From a virus, in IMG/VR virus record IMGVR_UViG_3300043823_000105, positions 1 to 35,200 of that record: a DNA stretch of 35,200 nt; one strand, given 5' to 3'. Within the stretch, counting starts at the first letter, position 1, and each line of letters starts with the position of its first letter. The notes beneath the pieces were generated by a model. That model saw nothing but the letters and a program-made list of their open reading frames with translations. It was not told the DNA's origin and searched no databases. The translations under genes and the position numbers were made by a program. Positions 19,175-30,601 of this stretch are shown piece by piece.

Positions 19175-19341
19175 TGGCAACAAACTATAAAATCTCAGGC
19201 AAAGAATATAAATCTCCCAAATCACACTATGTCGTGGTTAGAGAACATGAAAAGAAGACCGAGAACGAACTTCACAGGCTAGAAGATAAACTCAAAAAAC
19301 ATGAGAATCTGCCTATGGAAAAAGCGCATCCTAAATCTTAA
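19174..19341 (+). CDS. Small lysine-rich protein
   Basis: 55 residues (MATNYKISGKEYKSPKSHYVVVREHEKKTENELHRLEDKLKKHE...). It is charged and helical, with no recognised domain. It starts in TAATG overlap with the endolysin stop, so it is translated with the lysis genes. Its TAA stop at 19339-19341 shares the palindrome TTAA with the stop of the opposing minus-strand operon. Confidence 0.65.
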   Translation: MATNYKISGKEYKSPKSHYVVVREHEKKTENELHRLEDKLKKHENLPMEKAHPKS

Positions 19342-19697
19342 TTGGTAGCGGATTTTTTCCAATACTCGTATGTATCGGGCAGGGGAATGTCTTTAGGCCA
19401 TAGGTCGTGATAGATCATTTCCCAGACTGTCGTTAGATGAGCTGTATCCCAAAGTCGTGTTCTTTCGTCTTTGGATAACTTATGCCCTTGGTCTATTTCC
19501 ATGTGGCAAGAATGACACAGTGCAGCGATATACACGTCTGACGCCTTAATCCCTCTGCCTTTGCCGTGTTTGGCCTGGTTGCTATGCGCTGCGACTACAG
19601 TACCGTCCTCAATTCCGCAAATCTGACAAGGCAAAAGCCTCACCGACTCCAGTAGCTTTTTCGAGCGGATGTATGTTGTCTTTGCAATTGTGACCAT
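19338..19697 (-). CDS. YbcO-like HNH nuclease (DUF1364 type)
   Basis: 119 residues: TTYIRSKKLLESVRLLPCQICGIEDGTVVAAHSNQAKHGKGRGIKASDVYIAALCHSCHMEIDQG. Zinc-type CQIC and CHSC pairs plus AAHSN and the conserved KASD..IAALCHSCH block fit the YbcO nuclease family found beside NinB/NinG in lambdoid phages. It is the last gene of the minus-strand operon. A role in recombination or branched-DNA processing is inferred from neighbours. Confidence 0.82.
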   Translation of the reverse strand: MVTIAKTTYIRSKKLLESVRLLPCQICGIEDGTVVAAHSNQAKHGKGRGIKASDVYIAALCHSCHMEIDQGHKLSKDERTRLWDTAHLTTVWEMIYHDLWPKDIPLPDTYEYWKKSATN

Positions 19698-20780: not shown

Positions 20781-21061
20781 CAATCCACCATTAGTTTTAA
20801 CATTCTGAGCGCTGACTCCACCGAATCCACCAGGCAAAAAGGTCCACCTTTCCAGTTCTCAGCAAAGTGCTTCTGATTTTCGTTAAATCCTTTTTTGCCG
20901 TACTGGTTCTTTTTATTCTTGCACTCCATAAGCAGCGTTTTACCGTGATACCCAACCAATAAATCACAGGGTTCATTCAAGTAGTAAACAGTCGCACCGA
21001 CAGCCCTGAGAGCCTCTACAATCTCTTTCTCATTCTCATCCCGTCTAGCTGCGTACCGCAT
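20780..21061 (-). CDS. PD-(D/E)XK phage nuclease (VRR/resolvase-like)
   Basis: 93 residues from ATG 21061 (MRYAARRDENEKEIVEALRAVGATVYYL), preferred because the family begins in this way and GGGA lies eight bases upstream. A longer frame back to a TTG at 21103 exists. The core CDLLVGYHGKTLLMECKNKK contains D...E-x-K catalytic residues, followed by GFNENQKHFAENWKGGPFCLVDSVESAL. This class trims branched or damaged DNA. It is coupled to NinB. Confidence 0.82.
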   Translation of the reverse strand: MRYAARRDENEKEIVEALRAVGATVYYLNEPCDLLVGYHGKTLLMECKNKKNQYGKKGFNENQKHFAENWKGGPFCLVDSVESALRMLKLMVD

Positions 21062-21209
21062 AAAGCATCCCATCTGCTTGGTGTTTAAAATCTGCATAGT
21101 CAAAAAGATACATCCATTGGAGTAGTTCGTTTTTACAATCGTAGGCTAGATATAAATAAAAATATTCTAGTTGTCTAAGGTCGTAGTAGTTAATTTCTCG
21201 TTGCGTCAT
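21045..21209 (-). CDS. Small protein coupled by ATGA
   Basis: 54 residues (MTQREINYYDLRQLEYFYLYLAYDCKNELLQWMYLFDYADFKHQ...). The start overlaps the previous stop as ATGA. The Tyr/Leu-rich composition is unlike a random frame. The last 17 codons overlap the nuclease. Unknown function. Confidence 0.5.
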   Translation of the reverse strand: MTQREINYYDLRQLEYFYLYLAYDCKNELLQWMYLFDYADFKHQADGMLYAVRS

Positions 21210-21439
21210 TCTTGTCCCCTTGCTCTGATTGCTTCATCACACATTTCTAATACTCTTTCTGTAGAACAACCGTATTCAGAATTAAAACCTTCTCCACTTT
21301 CATTCCATCCTGCTAAAAATCCAGCTTTAAATGCTTTTTTTGCTACCAGTCTGGCAAAATCCTCAAGCGGTTCAAAAATTATTTGTGGGTCAAGAAACCC
21401 TGCTTTTTTCGCCATCTCTAAGATTTCATCTTTAGTCAT
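21206..21439 (-). CDS. Small early protein
   Basis: 77 residues (MTKDEILEMAKKAGFLDPQIIFEPLEDFARLVAKKAFKAGFLAGWNES). Helical. The opening MTKDEILEMAKKAGF and the LEDFARLVAK segment recur in unassigned phage early proteins. It is linked upstream and downstream by ATGA overlaps. Function unknown. Confidence 0.68.
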   Translation of the reverse strand: MTKDEILEMAKKAGFLDPQIIFEPLEDFARLVAKKAFKAGFLAGWNESGEGFNSEYGCSTERVLEMCDEAIRARGQE

Positions 21440-21612
21440 TGCTCCAGCTCCTTAATTTTCTCTGCCACATCCTTGCCTAAATTTTTAAATATTGGCTCGG
21501 TATTCATTTTCTCTTTAACCACACCTCGGATGTAATCCCTCCATCCAGGGTTTAGGGCTAGTTTTGCGTAAAAATCCACAATGGATCGATACTCAGCGTC
21601 CCAGTCAAACAT
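21436..21612 (-). CDS. Small early protein
   Basis: 58 residues (MFDWDAEYRSIVDFYAKLALNPGWRDYIRGVVKEKMNTEP...KIKELEQ). Acidic N-terminus and helical C-terminus. Overlapping junctions on both sides (ATGA to the next gene, 8 nt with the previous) show it belongs to the operon. Family not recognised. Confidence 0.62.
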   Translation of the reverse strand: MFDWDAEYRSIVDFYAKLALNPGWRDYIRGVVKEKMNTEPIFKNLGKDVAEKIKELEQ

Positions 21613-21805
21613 CGTTGTCCTCGACTATCCATTTACGCATCTCGTTTGATCTACGGTATCCCAGAGCCTTATACAGGGTAGGAGCGGTGTTTTTAACCTC
21701 TGCGAATACCTTGGGTAGTCTATTGTGTACAGGATACTTAGAACGCATTAGTTTGGTTTTTACGGGCCAGGGTGGTACTGGTTGCCAGATTGTTTTAATT
21801 TCCAT
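21605..21805 (-). CDS. Small basic early protein
   Basis: 66 residues (MEIKTIWQPVPPWPVKTKLMRSKYPVHNRLPKVFAEVKNTAPTLYKALGYRRSNEMRKW). Proline-rich, then basic. It starts within the last codons of the methyltransferase frame. Possible DNA- or protein-binding role, not demonstrable. Confidence 0.6.
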   Translation of the reverse strand: MEIKTIWQPVPPWPVKTKLMRSKYPVHNRLPKVFAEVKNTAPTLYKALGYRRSNEMRKWIVEDNDV

Positions 21806-23024
21806 TTAAGATTCTCCATGCGGTTGCTGCACATAATGGGACTTGTCCATTTCCAATGGCTTTAAGTCTGTCCATTCCTGCTATTTTTGTGCCACTAACT
21901 CTGGGAATGATCTGCGCTTCATCCATGCCAATTTGTTCCCACATTCCCGACTGCAAGTTTTCTCTCTTGCTCTCTTGTATGTGAACTGAATCCCGCAATA
22001 AAGACAAATCCTCTCCTTGGTGTGATCTTTCCATCTTTCGTTGGCGTGCAATGTCCCATGACATATCTGACAAAGAATCGCTATGTTGGATTTCTGATTG
22101 TTGAATGGGTTGTGATCCAAGTGGTGTCTGTGAAGGGTCTGAGTTCCACCACATCGTTCGCATTTGTCCAAAATTTTGTATAGCCGTTGCGCTTTCCTGT
22201 GTCCAGCGTTCAAATTCTTTTTTGTTAAATCCATTTATTTCACTCCATTTGATAGGCCAATTCATAAGCCATTCTACCCAATCCGGATTGAGTTTTCCAG
22301 AATTAGGATGAGCAACCATAGACAAATTTAATTGTTTCCCTTTTTCTGCTCTACGTTGAATTGCAGGGTTACTCATGTTACCCCTATCCCTACAATCCGA
22401 TGCTTGAGGTGTTGGAAACATCCTGTCCCGAACCGCTTGGTTGATGGAATATTGAGCTGAATGACCCGATTTGCGCTTGGGTGTCCAATTCTCCTGAGTT
22501 CCCCGCATTCCACAGTTTGCATCTGGTGTAGGCCATGTTTGTTCCGACAATCCAGATCCTGTCCCTCTGATGGTTTGCTCCAACGTCTGCCGCTCCCAAC
22601 ACTCCCCATTTCGCATCAAACCCCATTGAGGCCAAGTCTCCGAGAACTCGTCCAAGCCCCCTAGAAGTGAGCATTGGTGAGTTCTCCACAAAGACGTATC
22701 TGGGTCGTACTTCACGAATGATCCGTGCCATTTCTCCCCACATTCCTGAGCGTTCTCCATCAATTCCTGCTCCTTTTCCTGCAGCACTAATGTCCTGACA
22801 TGGAAAGCCACCACTGATGACATCAACAACTCCTCGCCAGGGATGTCCGTCAAAGGTTTGTACGTCATCCCAAATCGGGAAAGGCGGGAGAAGACCGTCA
22901 TTTTGTCGGGCGCACAGTACGCTTGCTGGGTAGGGTTCCCACTCAACTGCACAGACTGTTCTCCATCCAAGGAGTTTGCCTCCAAGTATTCCTCCACCAG
23001 CGCCTGCGAAAAGAGCCAACTCAT
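21795..23024 (-). CDS. C5-methyltransferase second frame: recognition region and motif X (beta-subunit-like)
   Basis: 409 residues, starting four bases after the alpha frame and overlapping it for about 630 nt. Residues 105-170 (KYDPDTSLWRTHQCSLLGG, DEFSETWPQWGLMRNGECWE, TWPTPDA) and LNPDWVEWLMNWPIKWSEI resemble a conserved phage family that accompanies Dcm-like enzymes. The end GMDRLKAIGNGQVP + LCAATAW is C5-methyltransferase motif X, absent from the alpha frame. Known precedents are M.EcoHK31I and M.AquI, where motifs are split between overlapping genes. Residues about 264-382 also overlap an HNH gene in another frame. The N-terminal 100 residues may be partly a shadow. Confidence 0.7.
   Translation of the reverse strand: MSWLFSQALVEEYLEANSLDGEQSVQLSGNPTQQAYCAPDKMTVFSRLSRFGMTYKPLTDIPGEELLMSSVVAFHVRTLVLQEKEQELMENAQECGEKWHGSFVKYDPDTSLWRTHQCSLLGGLDEFSETWPQWGLMRNGECWERQTLEQTIRGTGSGLSEQTWPTPDANCGMRGTQENWTPKRKSGHSAQYSINQAVRDRMFPTPQASDCRDRGNMSNPAIQRRAEKGKQLNLSMVAHPNSGKLNPDWVEWLMNWPIKWSEINGFNKKEFERWTQESATAIQNFGQMRTMWWNSDPSQTPLGSQPIQQSEIQHSDSLSDMSWDIARQRKMERSHQGEDLSLLRDSVHIQESKRENLQSGMWEQIGMDEAQIIPRVSGTKIAGMDRLKAIGNGQVPLCAATAWRILNGN
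21881..22234 (-). CDS. HNH endonuclease nested inside the methyltransferase gene
   Basis: 117 residues: CERC at 25-28, HRHHLDHNPFNNQKSNIAILCQICHGTLH (35-63, full HNH core) and a second zinc pair CLYC/CSREC (77-98). A GGAG ribosome site lies nine bases before the ATG. It lies wholly within the 409-residue frame at 21795-23024, in a different frame. The flanking host sequences are WPIKWSEI before and motif X after. This is the layout of a homing endonuclease inserted in a conserved gene. Too little room is left for a ribozyme core. Confidence 0.86.
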   Translation of the reverse strand: MDLTKKNLNAGHRKAQRLYKILDKCERCGGTQTLHRHHLDHNPFNNQKSNIAILCQICHGTLHANERWKDHTKERICLYCGIQFTYKRAREKTCSRECGNKLAWMKRRSFPELVAQK

Positions 23025-23028
23025 TCAT
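22390..23028 (-). CDS. C5-cytosine DNA methyltransferase, catalytic frame (alpha-subunit-like)
   Basis: 212 residues. Motif I is FAGAGG (7-12). Motif IV is GGFPCQD with nucleophile C77. Motif VI is VENSP (114-118). Motif VIII is QRDRIWIV (154-161). SAM binding and catalysis are covered, but the frame stops before the recognition domain and motifs IX-X. Those lie in the overlapping -strand frame to 21795. It methylates cytosine in phage DNA, protecting it from host restriction. The start is in ATGA overlap with the upstream gene. Either it works as a split enzyme or it is a truncated, frameshifted gene. Confidence 0.88.
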   Translation of the reverse strand: MNELALFAGAGGGILGGKLLGWRTVCAVEWEPYPASVLCARQNDGLLPPFPIWDDVQTFDGHPWRGVVDVISGGFPCQDISAAGKGAGIDGERSGMWGEMARIIREVRPRYVFVENSPMLTSRGLGRVLGDLASMGFDAKWGVLGAADVGANHQRDRIWIVGTNMAYTRCKLWNAGNSGELDTQAQIGSFSSIFHQPSGSGQDVSNTSSIGL

Positions 23029-23387
23029 ACTCTCCCCACATTTTTAAGTCTTTCCTTGACCCATTCAGGCATAGGAACAGCGTTATTTTTTTCTTGATCC
23101 AACTTGACGAGATACGGGTCTCTAACTTGAACCATCGTAGATGTCTCTGGTATTTCAGCACCATCCCATCTTTGTTGATTAAGATATACAAGTGGAGCAG
23201 GTATAAAAGCTCCATTATTTGATCTCCATTGATCTGTGGTTTTCATCCATTCAACGTGCTTTATGATTTGATCGGAGCAATGTTCGCATAAAAATTTGTC
23301 CCATTTTTTTCGACATTCTGACTTTGCTCCTTTTCTGGGAGATTTTGGCCAAGCGTCCCAAAATTTTTCAAATCCTGATTCAAACAT
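23025..23387 (-). CDS. Replication-protein-like gene
   Basis: 120 residues. FEKFWDAWPKSPRKGAKSECRKKWDKF and WRSNNGAFIPAPLVYLNQQRWDG are the conserved C-terminal blocks of phage replication (O/DnaT-like) proteins. The N-terminal DNA-binding half of such proteins is absent. It is the only candidate replication gene in the genome. It is coupled to the methyltransferase by ATGA overlap. Role by similarity of motifs, not proven. Confidence 0.7.
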   Translation of the reverse strand: MFESGFEKFWDAWPKSPRKGAKSECRKKWDKFLCEHCSDQIIKHVEWMKTTDQWRSNNGAFIPAPLVYLNQQRWDGAEIPETSTMVQVRDPYLVKLDQEKNNAVPMPEWVKERLKNVGRV

Positions 23388-23500
23388 GAATTACTCCTAT
23401 CAATGATTTCATAACGACCACACGCATTGCACGTCCAGGCCTCTCTATTTTTCGTTAGCTCATGTTGTCTAACAAACCCGCCACAACTACATAATCTCAT
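23261..23500 (-). CDS. Zinc-ribbon protein
   Basis: 79 residues. MRLCSCGGFVRQHELTKNREAWTCNACGRYEIID has a four-cysteine ribbon (CSC...CNAC), a pattern frequent in small phage proteins. The last 42 residues overlap the replication-like gene in another frame, so only the N-terminal half is well supported. Function unknown, likely nucleic-acid or protein contact. Confidence 0.62.
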   Translation of the reverse strand: MRLCSCGGFVRQHELTKNREAWTCNACGRYEIIDRSNSCLNQDLKNFGTLGQNLPEKEQSQNVEKNGTNFYANIAPIKS

Positions 23501-23690
23501 CTTGAAACCCAGTCCAGCACTCTTTTTGCTCTTTTAAAATTTCGTCTGCTTTAGAAAACAACAATTTTGTCTGTTCTGGACTCAAAAGAAACATACTGTC
23601 TCTCCCGCATTCCATACATTCTTGCTTAATTACTAAATAACCAACTTCAGAAACATAAAACTCTGTAGGAATTGAATGGTTTAATTTCAT
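23487..23690 (-). CDS. Small protein with Cys pair
   Basis: 67 residues from ATG 23690 (MKLNHSIPTEFYVSEVGYLVIKQECMECGRDSMFLLSPEQ...). CMEC may bind zinc. A longer frame begins at 23726 but lacks a ribosome site, so the inner Met is preferred. It overlaps the next gene by 14 nt. Unknown function. Confidence 0.62.
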   Translation of the reverse strand: MKLNHSIPTEFYVSEVGYLVIKQECMECGRDSMFLLSPEQTKLLFSKADEILKEQKECWTGFQDEIM

Positions 23691-23692
23691 AT

Positions 23693-24106
23693 TTAAATAC
23701 CTGCTTTTTGGTGAATGTTTGAGCAAAGCACAGCCTTACCGTGTTCAAAAACAAAGTTCGCTCTGTGCTGATAACTGCTTTTCGGAGCCATGTCATCGCA
23801 ACGCACTATCCCAGACTCTTTCAACCACCTGGCTCTAGGAATTCGCCCACCATCCTTGCTTTGGTTCGCTCGTGTTACAAGGTATCTCAAATCAAACCAC
23901 CGACGTACCGCATTTGATTGTCCAAAAGCAAAAACCCCGCAAGATTCTCTGTGGTCTTGGCTCTTGGCGAGAGCAACAACAAGACGATTGATAACGCAAA
24001 TCAAAAGACTCGTCTGCTGTACGACAAGACCACACAGTACCCTGCGGGGTTCATTATTTGCGTTTTCATCGCCTAGATGCCACTCTAGACGGTTTGGATT
24101 ATACAT
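23693..24106 (-). CDS. Icd/Ash-like protein overlapping a structured RNA
   Basis: 137 residues from ATG 24106, which shares its A with the cro stop (TGATG). The first half (PRRVLCGLVVQ...GVFAFGQSNAVRRWFDLRYLVT) reads through a C4-like folded RNA. The second half (APKSSYQHRANFVFEHGKAVLCSNIHQKAG) looks protein-coding. Many phage ORFs annotated as Ash or Icd-like cell-division inhibitors overlap C4 RNA in this manner, from memory. Whether the protein is made, or the RNA is the main product, cannot be settled by eye. Confidence 0.55.
   Translation of the reverse strand: MYNPNRLEWHLGDENANNEPRRVLCGLVVQQTSLLICVINRLVVALAKSQDHRESCGVFAFGQSNAVRRWFDLRYLVTRANQSKDGGRIPRARWLKESGIVRCDDMAPKSSYQHRANFVFEHGKAVLCSNIHQKAGI
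23933..24051 (-). ncRNA. C4-antisense-RNA-like structured RNA
   Basis: Outer stem AACCCCGCA / TGCGGGGTT pairs 24051-24043 with 23941-23933 (9 bp). The second stem GTGGTCTTG-type pairs 24037-24025 with 23959-23949 (11 bp with a two-base bulge). Two inner hairpins are TCGTCT / AGACGA-type (24010-24015 and 23982-23987) and GCTCT / AGAGC (23960-23974). On the minus strand the closing GCGGGG runs into TTTTTGCTTTT, a terminator-like end. Closing stem, inner hairpins and the location after cro recall C4 RNA of phages P1/P7. A covariance search is needed. Confidence 0.6.
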
Positions 24107-24816: not shown

Positions 24817-24997
24817 ATTCTATTACAACGGCAATATCACTACTCGCAAATTCCCTCGCACATTAGCTGAGGCATTTCCAGAATCACAAAACAACACATT
24901 TGAGGACGGTATGGACAAAGAAGATAAATTGGTCGTAGTCGCTTGCGTAATCGCAGCTGCAATTCTTTTTGTAATGGTTTTTGGGGGTGTGTTATGA
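24806..24997 (+). CDS. Small membrane protein
   Basis: 63 residues from ATG 24806 (MTIKFYYNGNITTRKFPRTLAEAFPES). One C-terminal membrane helix LVVVACVIAAAILFVMVFGGVL. The final ATGA overlaps the Erf start, so both are coupled. An early membrane protein of this size may be an exclusion or regulatory factor, but nothing specific is seen. Confidence 0.65.
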   Translation: MTIKFYYNGNITTRKFPRTLAEAFPESQNNTFEDGMDKEDKLVVVACVIAAAILFVMVFGGVL

Positions 24998-25557
24998 AAT
25001 TAGTATCAACAGCATTTGTTAAAGCTCAACAACAGTTCGGGCCTGCGCTTAAAACGTCTACTAACCCACACTTTAAATCTCGGTACGCTGATTTGTCTGC
25101 CTGTGTTGAGGCGGTCATTGATGCGCTAAACGCAAACGGCATTGCTCTCATGCAGAAAATGCACCCAAGTGAGGGCGGTGTAGCGATTGAGACTATTTTT
25201 GTACACGAGTCTGGTGAATCAATGGCTAACGGTATTTTGCACGTTCCTGCATCCAGACAAGACCCACAGGGGTACGGAAGTGCGCTGACATACGCAAGAC
25301 GCTATTCGCTAATGACCGCCTGCGGTATTGCTCCAGAGGATGACGATGGCAACATGGCATCTAAGAGGGAAGTTAAGTCTTTTGCAAACGAATCCGAGAT
25401 GAGGGACTGGTTGGATGTGATTAGCCAATCAACCGAGCTTGATCAACTGCAAAAGAACTACGTCAAAGCGATTGCAGCGTCAAACGGTGACAAGGATTGG
25501 CAATTAAAAATTATTGCCGTAAAAGATCAAATGAAGAAAAAATTAGGAGCTAAATAA
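24994..25557 (+). CDS. erf: Erf-family ssDNA annealing protein
   Basis: 187 residues. PHFKSRYADLSACVEAVIDALNANGIALMQ and QDPQGYGSALTYARRYSLMTACGIAPEDDDGN are the conserved blocks of the ERF superfamily (P22 Erf). It anneals complementary ssDNA, allowing RecA-independent recombination and concatemer or circle formation. A short C-terminal helical region follows (residues 125-187). It is paired with the YqaJ exonuclease directly downstream (TAATG overlap). Confidence 0.92.
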   Translation: MKLVSTAFVKAQQQFGPALKTSTNPHFKSRYADLSACVEAVIDALNANGIALMQKMHPSEGGVAIETIFVHESGESMANGILHVPASRQDPQGYGSALTYARRYSLMTACGIAPEDDDGNMASKREVKSFANESEMRDWLDVISQSTELDQLQKNYVKAIAASNGDKDWQLKIIAVKDQMKKKLGAK

Positions 25558-26162
25558 TGGATCAAGGAACAGATGAATGGTTTGCAGTTAGAGCTGGAAA
25601 AGTTACTGCGTCAAGGGTTGCCGATGTCATCGCTACGACCAAGACTGGTTATAGCGCAAGCAGAGCTAACTACGAGGCGCAACTGATTTGTGAGATTTTG
25701 ACGGGCAAGCCTGCGGAGTCTTACACCAACGCAGCGATGCAATGGGGAACTGAAACAGAGCCACTTGCCAGAGCGCAATACGAGCTCAAAACGGGTGAAA
25801 TGGTGGATCAGATCGGATTTGTCGTTCATCCTGAGATTGAGCAAGCAGGCGCAAGTCCAGACGGATTGGTGGGCGCAGAGGGGCTTATTGAGATTAAATG
25901 CCCAAATACAGCCACTCATTTGGACACATTACTCAGCCAAGAAGTACCGAGTAAATATGTAACCCAAATGACTTGGCAGATGCTCTGCACAGGCAGAAAG
26001 TGGTGTGATTTTGTCAGCTACGATCCCAGACTGCCCGACAATCTCCAACTCTTTATTAAACGGGTCAATCTGGATGAGGAGTTCGGACGAAAGTTAGAAA
26101 CAGAAGTTAAGAAATTTTTGATAGAAGTAAATAGTAAAGTAGAAAAATTGAGGAACATATGA
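25557..26162 (+). CDS. YqaJ-type (lambda Exo-like) 5'-3' exonuclease
   Basis: 201 residues. The N-terminal DEWFAVRAGKVTASRVADV is the YqaJ opening. QAGASPDGLVG carries D102, and LIEIKCP carries E112 and K114 of the PD-(D/E)XK centre. QMTWQMLCTGRKWCDFVSYDP matches the family's C-terminal block. It resects dsDNA ends and hands ssDNA to Erf. The pair makes a complete Red-like system. It is joined to the next gene by ATGA overlap. Confidence 0.92.
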   Translation: MDQGTDEWFAVRAGKVTASRVADVIATTKTGYSASRANYEAQLICEILTGKPAESYTNAAMQWGTETEPLARAQYELKTGEMVDQIGFVVHPEIEQAGASPDGLVGAEGLIEIKCPNTATHLDTLLSQEVPSKYVTQMTWQMLCTGRKWCDFVSYDPRLPDNLQLFIKRVNLDEEFGRKLETEVKKFLIEVNSKVEKLRNI

Positions 26163-29270: not shown

Positions 29271-29441
29271 ATGTTTAATTTTCAACACGAAGTACAAGAC
29301 GTAAACCTAATTATCACGGCTTTAGAGCATAAAGCTCGGGATATTCAGTTACTGATCCAGAAACTCACCAAATCAGCCAACGAGCAAGTTGCAGCGCAAC
29401 AACCGCAACCAGACGCTCCTGCTGAAACACCCGCACAATAA
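29271..29441 (+). CDS. Small helical protein before the methyltransferase
   Basis: 56 residues (MFNFQHEVQDVNLIITALEHKARDIQLLIQKLTKSANEQVAAQQPQPDAPAETPAQ): an amphipathic coiled coil, then a Gln/Pro/Ala tail. The stop overlaps the next start as TAATG. The small coiled coil may oligomerise. Unknown function. Confidence 0.68.
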   Translation: MFNFQHEVQDVNLIITALEHKARDIQLLIQKLTKSANEQVAAQQPQPDAPAETPAQ

Positions 29442-30601
29442 TGCAAATTGTTGAAAAAGATATTAAGGATTTAATTCCTTATATAAACAACAGTCGCACC
29501 CATTCTGACGAGCAAGTAGCGCAGATCGCTGCAAGCATTAAGGAATTTGGTTGGACTAACCCTGTATTGATCGCTGAAGATAACAGCATCATTGCAGGGC
29601 ATGGAAGGCTGATGGCGGCCAGAAAATTAGGATTTGATACTGTTCCAACTATTGAGCTACAAAACCTCACAGAAGCCCAGAAAAAGGCTTATGTAATAGC
29701 AGATAACCGACTGGCATTAAATGCGGGTTGGGATATGGAAATGCTTAAGGTTGAGCTACAAAACTTGCAGGAATTGGATTTTGATCTAGATTTACTGGGA
29801 TTTGACCCAAAAGAGTTGGATGCAATATTAGAGCCAGAGCAAATTGAAGGGTTAACGGATGAGGATGCCGTTCCTGAGATACCTGAAGAGCCTAGAACTA
29901 AAGTTGGGGATATTTACCAATTAGGCAATCACCGTTTGATGTGTGGCGATTCTTCTAGCCAGGACAATATAGATTTACTGTTAAATGGTGAAAGACCAGA
30001 TTTAATATTTACAGACCCTCCTTATAACATTGATTATCAAGGTGTAAGCGATAAAAGAGACAAGATTAAAAATGACAAAATGGAAGATTCCCAATTTGTT
30101 GATTTTTTAATACAAACGCTTTACGGCTGTGAAACCATGTATGTTTGCTGTTCTTGGCACTATGCTCATCTTTTTAGAGAAGCGATGGAGAAAATAGGTA
30201 GAAAACCTAAAGCCATGATTGTTTGGAATAAAGTAAATCCAGCGCAACATTTAGACAAGTATTTTAAGCAACATGAAATAATTTTTTATTACGGTGATTA
30301 TGGTGGTCATAAAACGGTTAGAGGTGACGTTTGGACTATTAAAAGACAAAAAAATACTGTTCATCCAACCATGAAGCCAGTGGAGTTGATTGAAATAGCT
30401 TTAGAAGATACCAAAGGCAAAAAGATTGTTTTTGATATGTTTGGCGGTTCTGGTAGCACTATGATTGCTTGTGAAAAGCAAGGTAGGCACGCCAGATTGA
30501 TGGAGTTGGAGCCAAAATACTGCGATGTCATAGTAAAGCGTTGGGAAGATTTCACGGGAAAAAAAGCCGTTTTATTGACAGAATTAACCGAAATTGCTTA
30601 A
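29441..30601 (+). CDS. DNA methyltransferase with N-terminal ParB-like domain
   Basis: 386 residues. Residues 1-95 form a ParB/Srx-like domain (NNSRTHSDEQVAQIAASIKEFGWTNPVLI...IIAGHGRLMAARKLG). Residues 150-380 are an amino-methyltransferase with motif IV DPPY (192-195) before motif I FDMFGGSGST (331-340), the beta-class order. It modifies adenine or cytosine amino groups. Such ParB-Mtase fusions are common beside phage terminase genes and may protect or mark DNA for packaging. Coupled to the preceding ORF. Confidence 0.88.
   Translation: MQIVEKDIKDLIPYINNSRTHSDEQVAQIAASIKEFGWTNPVLIAEDNSIIAGHGRLMAARKLGFDTVPTIELQNLTEAQKKAYVIADNRLALNAGWDMEMLKVELQNLQELDFDLDLLGFDPKELDAILEPEQIEGLTDEDAVPEIPEEPRTKVGDIYQLGNHRLMCGDSSSQDNIDLLLNGERPDLIFTDPPYNIDYQGVSDKRDKIKNDKMEDSQFVDFLIQTLYGCETMYVCCSWHYAHLFREAMEKIGRKPKAMIVWNKVNPAQHLDKYFKQHEIIFYYGDYGGHKTVRGDVWTIKRQKNTVHPTMKPVELIEIALEDTKGKKIVFDMFGGSGSTMIACEKQGRHARLMELEPKYCDVIVKRWEDFTGKKAVLLTELTEIA

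Follow-up and report, generated by a model that had tools for sequence, protein, structure and literature searches.

A predicted phage cytosine-C5 methyltransferase in two overlapping frames, with an HNH insert that would move motif X from one subunit to the other

The window analysed here, which is the 35,200-base virus record IMGVR_UViG_3300043823_000105 taken over its whole length, very probably encodes a cytosine-C5 methyltransferase made as two polypeptides, alpha and beta, from overlapping frames, with an HNH insert that moves motif X into beta. The frames, the sites of selection, the insert with its length, and the loss of the alpha frame after the hand-over of motif X can be read from the DNA of the window and its relatives. 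We infer expression of alpha, beta and the HNH protein, as well as assembly, methylation and homing.

Alpha and beta would be translated from neighbouring starts, that of beta lying 4 nt downstream. Alpha would supply the AdoMet and catalytic core (motifs I-VIII), and beta would supply target recognition, the equivalent of motif IX and, in the window, also motif X; both would assemble into one C5-methyltransferase fold. Motif X would come from alpha in most relatives and from beta in the window, whose motifs IX and X are set apart by an element of 373 nt (3n+1) that carries an HNH gene in the third frame. Beta would be threaded through the alternate frame of the HNH gene as a linker, so that no splicing would be needed. 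Translation of the HNH protein probably begins at a start of its own, and the protein may help the element to spread into uninterrupted copies.

Layout of the locus

All genes of the locus, and the features within them, lie on the minus strand. Alpha (22390-23028, 212 aa) is the catalytic polypeptide of a C5-methyltransferase. It has the core that characterizes these enzymes, made of motifs I-VIII and a PC catalytic cysteine (Cys77 in the motif GGFPCQ, codon 22798-22800), and in the window it stops after motif VIII. Matches of alpha include PF00145 (Pfam, 3.2e-32), phrog_363 (PHROGs, 3e-59) and M.HhaI (phmmer, 1e-13), and its closest solved relatives are M.HhaI and M.HaeIII.

Beta (21795-23024, 409 aa) is read in the +1 frame and matches phrog_1008, 'DNA methyltransferase' (PHROGs, 2.9e-31); no Pfam family was matched by beta. 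It holds PTP repeats, the block NPDWVEWLMNWP and motif X (GMDRLKAIGNGQVP). Alignment delimits a TRD-like variable region with WPTP/FPTP repeats (22299-22541), over which beta alone is selected in relatives, and a motif-IX-like block, GKLNPDWVEWLMNWPIKWS (22242-22298). Motif X, GMDRLKAIGNGQVPLCAATAW (21816-21878), is read in the frame of beta in the window, and in that of alpha in relatives that have no HNH. It is clear by alignment, and the TRD and motif IX of beta were placed by position and by means of the single-frame relatives described below.

Both starts are contained in ATGAATG (23022-23028), which comprises the alpha start, the stop TGA of the upstream gene and the beta start. The upstream gene (23025-23387) is replication-protein-like (phrog_9474, 2.4e-12), and its TGA lies between the starts of alpha and beta. 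The initial annotation had described a C5-methyltransferase in two overlapping frames with the same limits, with the catalytic motifs in the alpha frame, motif X in the beta frame, ATGs four bases apart and about 630 nt dual-coding. The ORFs, the profile matches and the motifs found here agree with that description, and the stretch common to both frames measures 635 nt.

A third layer had gone unmentioned. An HNH endonuclease ORF (21881-22234, 117 aa) is nested in beta in the third frame, and matches phrog_1271 (PHROGs, 9.9e-10) and, under the Pfam cut-off, the Pfam HNH family (0.0017). It makes up nearly all of an insert of 373 nt between two Trp codons (21875-22247, exact ends uncertain). 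An Rfam search of window positions 21000-23700 gave no match up to E 1.

The structure model of alpha from a relative (L009; mean pLDDT 61) has the catalytic fold, a disordered segment at 168-234 and a C-terminal helix with motif X. Its alignment with M.HhaI spans residues 1-251 (Z 16.0, rmsd 3.4, 185 residues), and the disordered linker stands at the place expected for the TRD. The model of window beta was poor (mean pLDDT 53.5), with order in residues 95-145 and 170-300 and pLDDT below 50 over most of residues 305-395, the part that overlaps the HNH gene. A Foldseek comparison of this model with the PDB gave no match with E <= 0.001; among viral models five weak matches passed the same limit, and two of these bear the name methyltransferase or DNA methylase. 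As the beta model is poor and without such a match in the PDB, alignment and position are the basis of the TRD reading.

The same phage carries a second methylase, in which a ParB-like N-terminal part is fused to a DNA methyltransferase (29441-30601, plus strand; phrog_620 and phrog_498).

Selection on the two frames

Viral contigs were scanned with beta, and 80 of at least 599 related stretches were kept. Beta was +1 to alpha in all 80. The homologous stretch was taken as the counterpart of window beta from residue 1 to at least residue 255. Over this stretch, 91 of 92 relatives had an open beta frame; the exception, L008, has a stop at beta codon 33, and five loci in which the stretch is uncovered (L081, L083, L085, L086 and L096) were left out of the count. 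In 62 of 78 loci the possible alpha start nearest to the beta ATG lay 4 nt upstream of it; in 4 loci it was 13 nt upstream, and in the other 12 it was 5 nt downstream. In 55 of these 78 loci the beta ATG touches or overlaps the TGA of an upstream frame with a length of 60 codons or more, an arrangement that would suit re-initiation in either frame.

Homologues with one uninterrupted frame through all motifs had been named beforehand as the sign of a frameshift mutation or an assembly error in an ordinary single-frame methyltransferase. Such homologues do exist, and are what can be said for an error. They are found only far away: gp23 of Mycobacterium phage prophiT46-2 and gp70 of ShiLan hold motifs I-VIII, PTP repeats, EWMMGWP and motif X within one ORF. 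Their motif order is the reason why the C-terminal half of beta was assigned to the TRD and motif IX, and they support this assignment rather than pointing to an error in the window. The near relatives, on independent contigs, are all split (the 80 kept of at least 599). Furthermore, a single block has motif IX in one frame and motif X in another, both of them constrained, so that no indel can restore a single frame. We consider an error extremely unlikely.

Stops in the beta frame were compared with a null in which the alpha protein was fixed and its codons were redrawn. Across 79 non-redundant loci (21,058 codons), one beta-frame stop was seen against 417 expected from synonymous recoding of alpha. 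When 81 loci were divided by region, seen and expected beta stops were 1 and 41 in codons 2-64, 0 and 102 in codons 65-110, and 0 and 122 in codons 111-163. In the other frame, the respective figures were 371 and 207, 214 and 187, and 173 and 202.

Codon-substitution constraint in both frames, a check suggested in the initial annotation, was computed as the ratio of replacement to silent rate with the effect of the other frame held constant, 1 being neutral. The comparison involved 400 pairs from 81 loci without HNH; the pairs are related and were used without a tree, hence the ratios carry no p-values. Ratios are rough when taken singly, as few sites are silent in both frames, and the contrast between frames weakens at greater divergence, with sites saturating; with this proviso, the alpha ratio was 0.01-0.07 over codons 2-163 of the relatives, and beta ratios were 0.30 and 0.25 in codons 111-163 (control frame, 0.94 and 0.73), 0.39 and 0.56 in codons 65-110 (control frame, 0.66 and 0.98), and 0.96 and 0.25, a mixed signal, in codons 2-64. 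Between motifs VIII and IX the ratio was 0.04 for beta and 0.84 for alpha, and over the block that codes IX and X (IX/X block) it was 0.05 for beta and 0.07 for alpha. As judged from these ratios, the selected frame shifts along the gene: it is alpha over motifs I-VIII and only beta from VIII to IX, and in the IX/X block the two frames are selected together.

A different explanation of the open beta frame is that only alpha matters, the openness and similarity of beta being by-products of the alpha protein and its codon use. Beta similarity over codons 111-163 was examined in 27 loci against recoded alphas, with two single-chain enzymes (L120 and L121) as controls. Among 14 loci with alpha at least 56% identical, beta identity was 24-62%, against about 20-35% from recoded alpha alone, and all 14 had an excess (z 1.5 to 5.7). 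Eight of the 13 more distant loci (L081, L108, L109, L110, L111, L113, L115 and L118) had a clear excess (z 2.7 to 4.5); the excess was weak or absent in the other five, including the controls L120 (z 1.2) and L121 (z 0.9). The control frame was likewise in excess in many close pairs, hence shared ancestry contributes to the excess found for beta.

The recoded identities of about 20-35%, together with a match of the beta profile to the +1 frame of the ordinary C5 enzyme L121 (2e-7), are in line with the view that only alpha matters. Against it stand the avoidance of stops, far beyond the null, and the stretch between motifs VIII and IX, where beta is strongly selected and alpha is neutral. We give this view very little credence, and favor a beta that is itself a coding sequence.

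The recoding test led us to discard beta similarity over the catalytic half as evidence, as it is largely a shadow of the conservation of alpha. The initial annotation had held that both readings look conserved. For beta, this is borne out by the substitution classes (0.25-0.30 against 0.73-0.94 in codons 111-163), and its identity over the catalytic half, much of which is a by-product of alpha, calls for care.

In relatives without HNH, the block for motif IX of beta leads directly into motif X, which is read in the frame of alpha, and one stretch of DNA serves both motifs. Nucleotide conservation of the IX/X block in the three phases was 0.96, 0.92 and 0.87 (69 loci). Between motifs VIII and X, alpha had no stop in 7,810 codons of 84 loci without insert, and none against 268 expected when the beta protein was held fixed (69 loci). 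The alpha frame is open there although otherwise unselected; alpha thus keeps a linker to reach motif X, in the same DNA that is the recognition region of beta.

These observations are also relevant to programmed ribosomal frameshifting from alpha into beta, by which one joined polypeptide would be made and the beta start would remain unused. In loci with HNH a single +1 shift is readable, and would yield a chain complete with I-VIII, TRD, IX and X. In relatives without HNH, however, IX and X share their bases, and one chain cannot hold both. Moreover, ahead of any site at which a shift would be of use, the beta frame is already open and under constraint, and the beta ATG lies at most 13 nt from a possible alpha start in 78 of 78 loci. 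A joined chain is thus improbable in our opinion, and two separately started polypeptides are preferred.

The HNH insert and the position of motif X

The length of the insert was measured from the Trp codon of motif IX to the Trp codon beside motif X, which are one codon in relatives without HNH. It was exactly 373 nt in nine loci and 175 nt in L054; L090 is without the right-hand landmark and has no insert length. Both lengths are 3n+1, and therefore motif X shifts from the alpha frame, where the usual relatives have it, to the beta frame of the window. In L054, a deletion removed most of HNH, and beta and motif X are still in frame.

Between motif VIII and HNH, alpha had 33 stops in 1,104 codons of the 10 loci with HNH (the window included), with at least one in each locus, against none in the 84 loci without insert. 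This is as expected if alpha need not reach motif X any more.

The stretch covered by HNH was analyzed in 10 loci, with L090 instead of L054. The ratio for the HNH frame was 0.06 (43 pairs), and the beta ratios were 1.06 and 1.54, as for neutral residues. Beta had one stop in the 10 loci, against about 68 expected. Along with the low pLDDT, the ratios and the stop count mark 21879-22241 as a linker by which beta passes through the HNH gene in a frame different from that of HNH. Beta was open in 9 of 10 loci with a whole HNH. In the remaining case, L089, the HNH ORF (2501-2854) is intact and a TGA in place of a beta Trp codon cuts motif X off from both alpha and beta.

The shortened alpha of loci with HNH and the beta stop of L089 might be taken as signs that a formerly working split enzyme has been decaying since the HNH insertion. 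Alpha is lost only past motif VIII, however, and motifs I-VIII, TRD, IX and X are intact in frame. In addition, the deletion in L054 kept beta in frame, and so did all but one of the loci with a whole HNH. Decay seems to us an improbable explanation, compared with an enzyme that stays complete by having motif X in beta.

Relatives of the HNH ORF were found in at least 13 cases in viral contigs, all 13 directly before motif X of this methyltransferase gene; six of them are contigs already present in the beta scan, and two seem to be near-copies of one another. In an alpha tree of 83 rows, the nine HNH rows need seven changes, at least three of which are forced by supported branches, and a single clade of HNH loci was rejected with an AU p of 0.029. 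Repeated insertion and recombination of the 3' part could both cause such scatter. Three traits of a hidden insert are found: an HNH ORF out of the host frame, a host frame that is open, and a scattered distribution that suggests mobility.

A further reading, towards which we incline by a small margin, is that a homing element can live without intron or intein by making use of overlapping genes: a 3n+1 HNH cassette would hand motif X from one subunit to the other, the enzyme would stay complete, and the losing frame would be free to decay. The cassette would have settled in DNA that codes IX in one frame and X in another, and the IX/X block would be a good homing target given its conservation in all three phases. 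The enzyme would be complete after insertion because the receiving subunit reads through HNH in a frame kept free of stops, and one strand would yield three proteins in three frames. The insert is a natural experiment in which 3n+1 bases move a catalytic motif between subunits, and the selection on each frame shifts in the way that a two-subunit model predicts.

The window also harbors an Erf-like annealing protein gene that adjoins a RecE-like exonuclease gene (24943-26162, plus strand), a recombination pair that could be an aid to homing. A separate, second HNH endonuclease ORF is found at 19338-19697 on the minus strand (phrog_131, 1.3e-27).

Known systems, distant relatives and annotation

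In known C5 enzymes, motif X packs on the catalytic domain. The beta polypeptide of M.EcoHK31I is encoded within the alpha gene, in an alternate frame. The genes of M.AquI are adjacent and do not overlap, unlike the frames of the window with their common 635 nt. The window is like M.AquI in that alpha has motifs I-VIII and beta has a distal variable region or TRD, IX and X.

According to PMC3404938, the small polypeptide of M.EcoHK31I has motif IX alone, with motif X and a predicted TRD in alpha, and the small subunit of M.AquI carries the distal variable region, IX and X. As far as descriptions allow comparison, the window family is like M.EcoHK31I in its two polypeptides, its overlapping frames and the presence of IX in beta. 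The predicted TRD is in alpha in M.EcoHK31I, whereas here alpha is neutral at the place where a TRD would lie, and it is beta that has a selected TRD-like region. The M.EcoHK31I division, with I-VIII and X in alpha and only IX in beta, is not that of the window, but motif X is in alpha in those relatives that have no HNH. Since the usual relatives are M.EcoHK31I-like and the window is M.AquI-like, the insert would turn one kind of split into the other. The likeness to M.EcoHK31I proposed in the initial annotation therefore holds for the two frames; the presence of X in beta is the M.AquI division, owing to the HNH insert.

Hidden out-of-frame HNH inserts, with no intron or intein, are described in actinophage methylases under the name ShiLan domain (PMC11855218). 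As in the window, an HNH ORF lies in another frame of a phage methylase, the host frame is without stops and the distribution is scattered, according to the same text (PMC11855218). The ShiLan HNH is a weak relative of the window HNH (26% over 76 aa; BLAST 7e-5; profile 9e-7, against five ORFs). ShiLan differs in having the insert in another methylase (gp65) and at another site, the host being described as one ORF in that text (PMC11855218); in the window the host gene has two frames, and the insert changes the subunit that carries motif X. Another parallel is found in Paenibacillus phage Diva, where DIVA_49 and DIVA_50, a methyltransferase with a 'g49 internal gene', have the same frame relation as alpha and beta. 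Unlike in the window, beta of Diva starts internally, was deposited as a hypothetical protein and has no HNH annotated.

The split over two frames is already in print for M.EcoHK31I, as is the hidden out-of-frame HNH insert for ShiLan, and the HNH layer is not new in kind. The new elements are the extent and the under-annotation of the split, the IX/X block common to two frames and the hand-over of motif X. In the literature covered on overlapping-frame phage methyltransferases, with few subscription papers among it, we found no account of the split as a family rule, of a two-frame IX/X block or of a motif moved by an insert.

The split extends to distant annotated loci, 18 of which were examined. 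They include mycobacteriophages; Streptomyces, Lacticaseibacillus, Bacteroides and cyanobacterial phages; and Leptospira, Paenibacillus and Bacteroides plasmids. The beta profile matched in the +1 frame in all 18, and the C-terminal half of beta was found in 17 (L113 is without it); in 11 the profile match begins only at position 55 or later. Motif X was found in alpha in 15 loci and in beta in one, and was not found in two. The locus with X in beta is that of Streptomyces phage Samy (L086; xb profile 7e-4), which is possibly an independent hand-over of motif X.

Gp70 of ShiLan (L125, 5344-6501) has the TRD, IX and X in the frame of alpha. In its +1 frame, the stretch of motifs VI-VIII nevertheless codes a block that resembles beta (DPDTSSWK ... 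FSETWP ... GMTRSG, profile 5e-17). Judged from these frames, gp70 is a mixed state between split and single-frame.

Listed coordinates were compared with profile matches in 20 fetched split records, made up of the 18 distant loci, L122 and L123. Alpha only was annotated in 16 of 20, and beta only in two (L115 and L123). Both were annotated as overlapping genes in one record (L122), and both with beta trimmed against the overlap in another (L086). The survey of relatives suggests that division over two overlapping frames, an oddity that is seldom described, is the rule in a large family of phage methyltransferases. If a gene of this kind is cloned as annotated, half an enzyme would be expressed.

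Relatives that resemble the form of enteric phages at the DNA level are present in at least 4 of 5,426 E. coli genomes. In one prophage, that of E. coli PCP07014 (L124), alpha is annotated with an internal stop, and the beta profile match is broken in two there as well.
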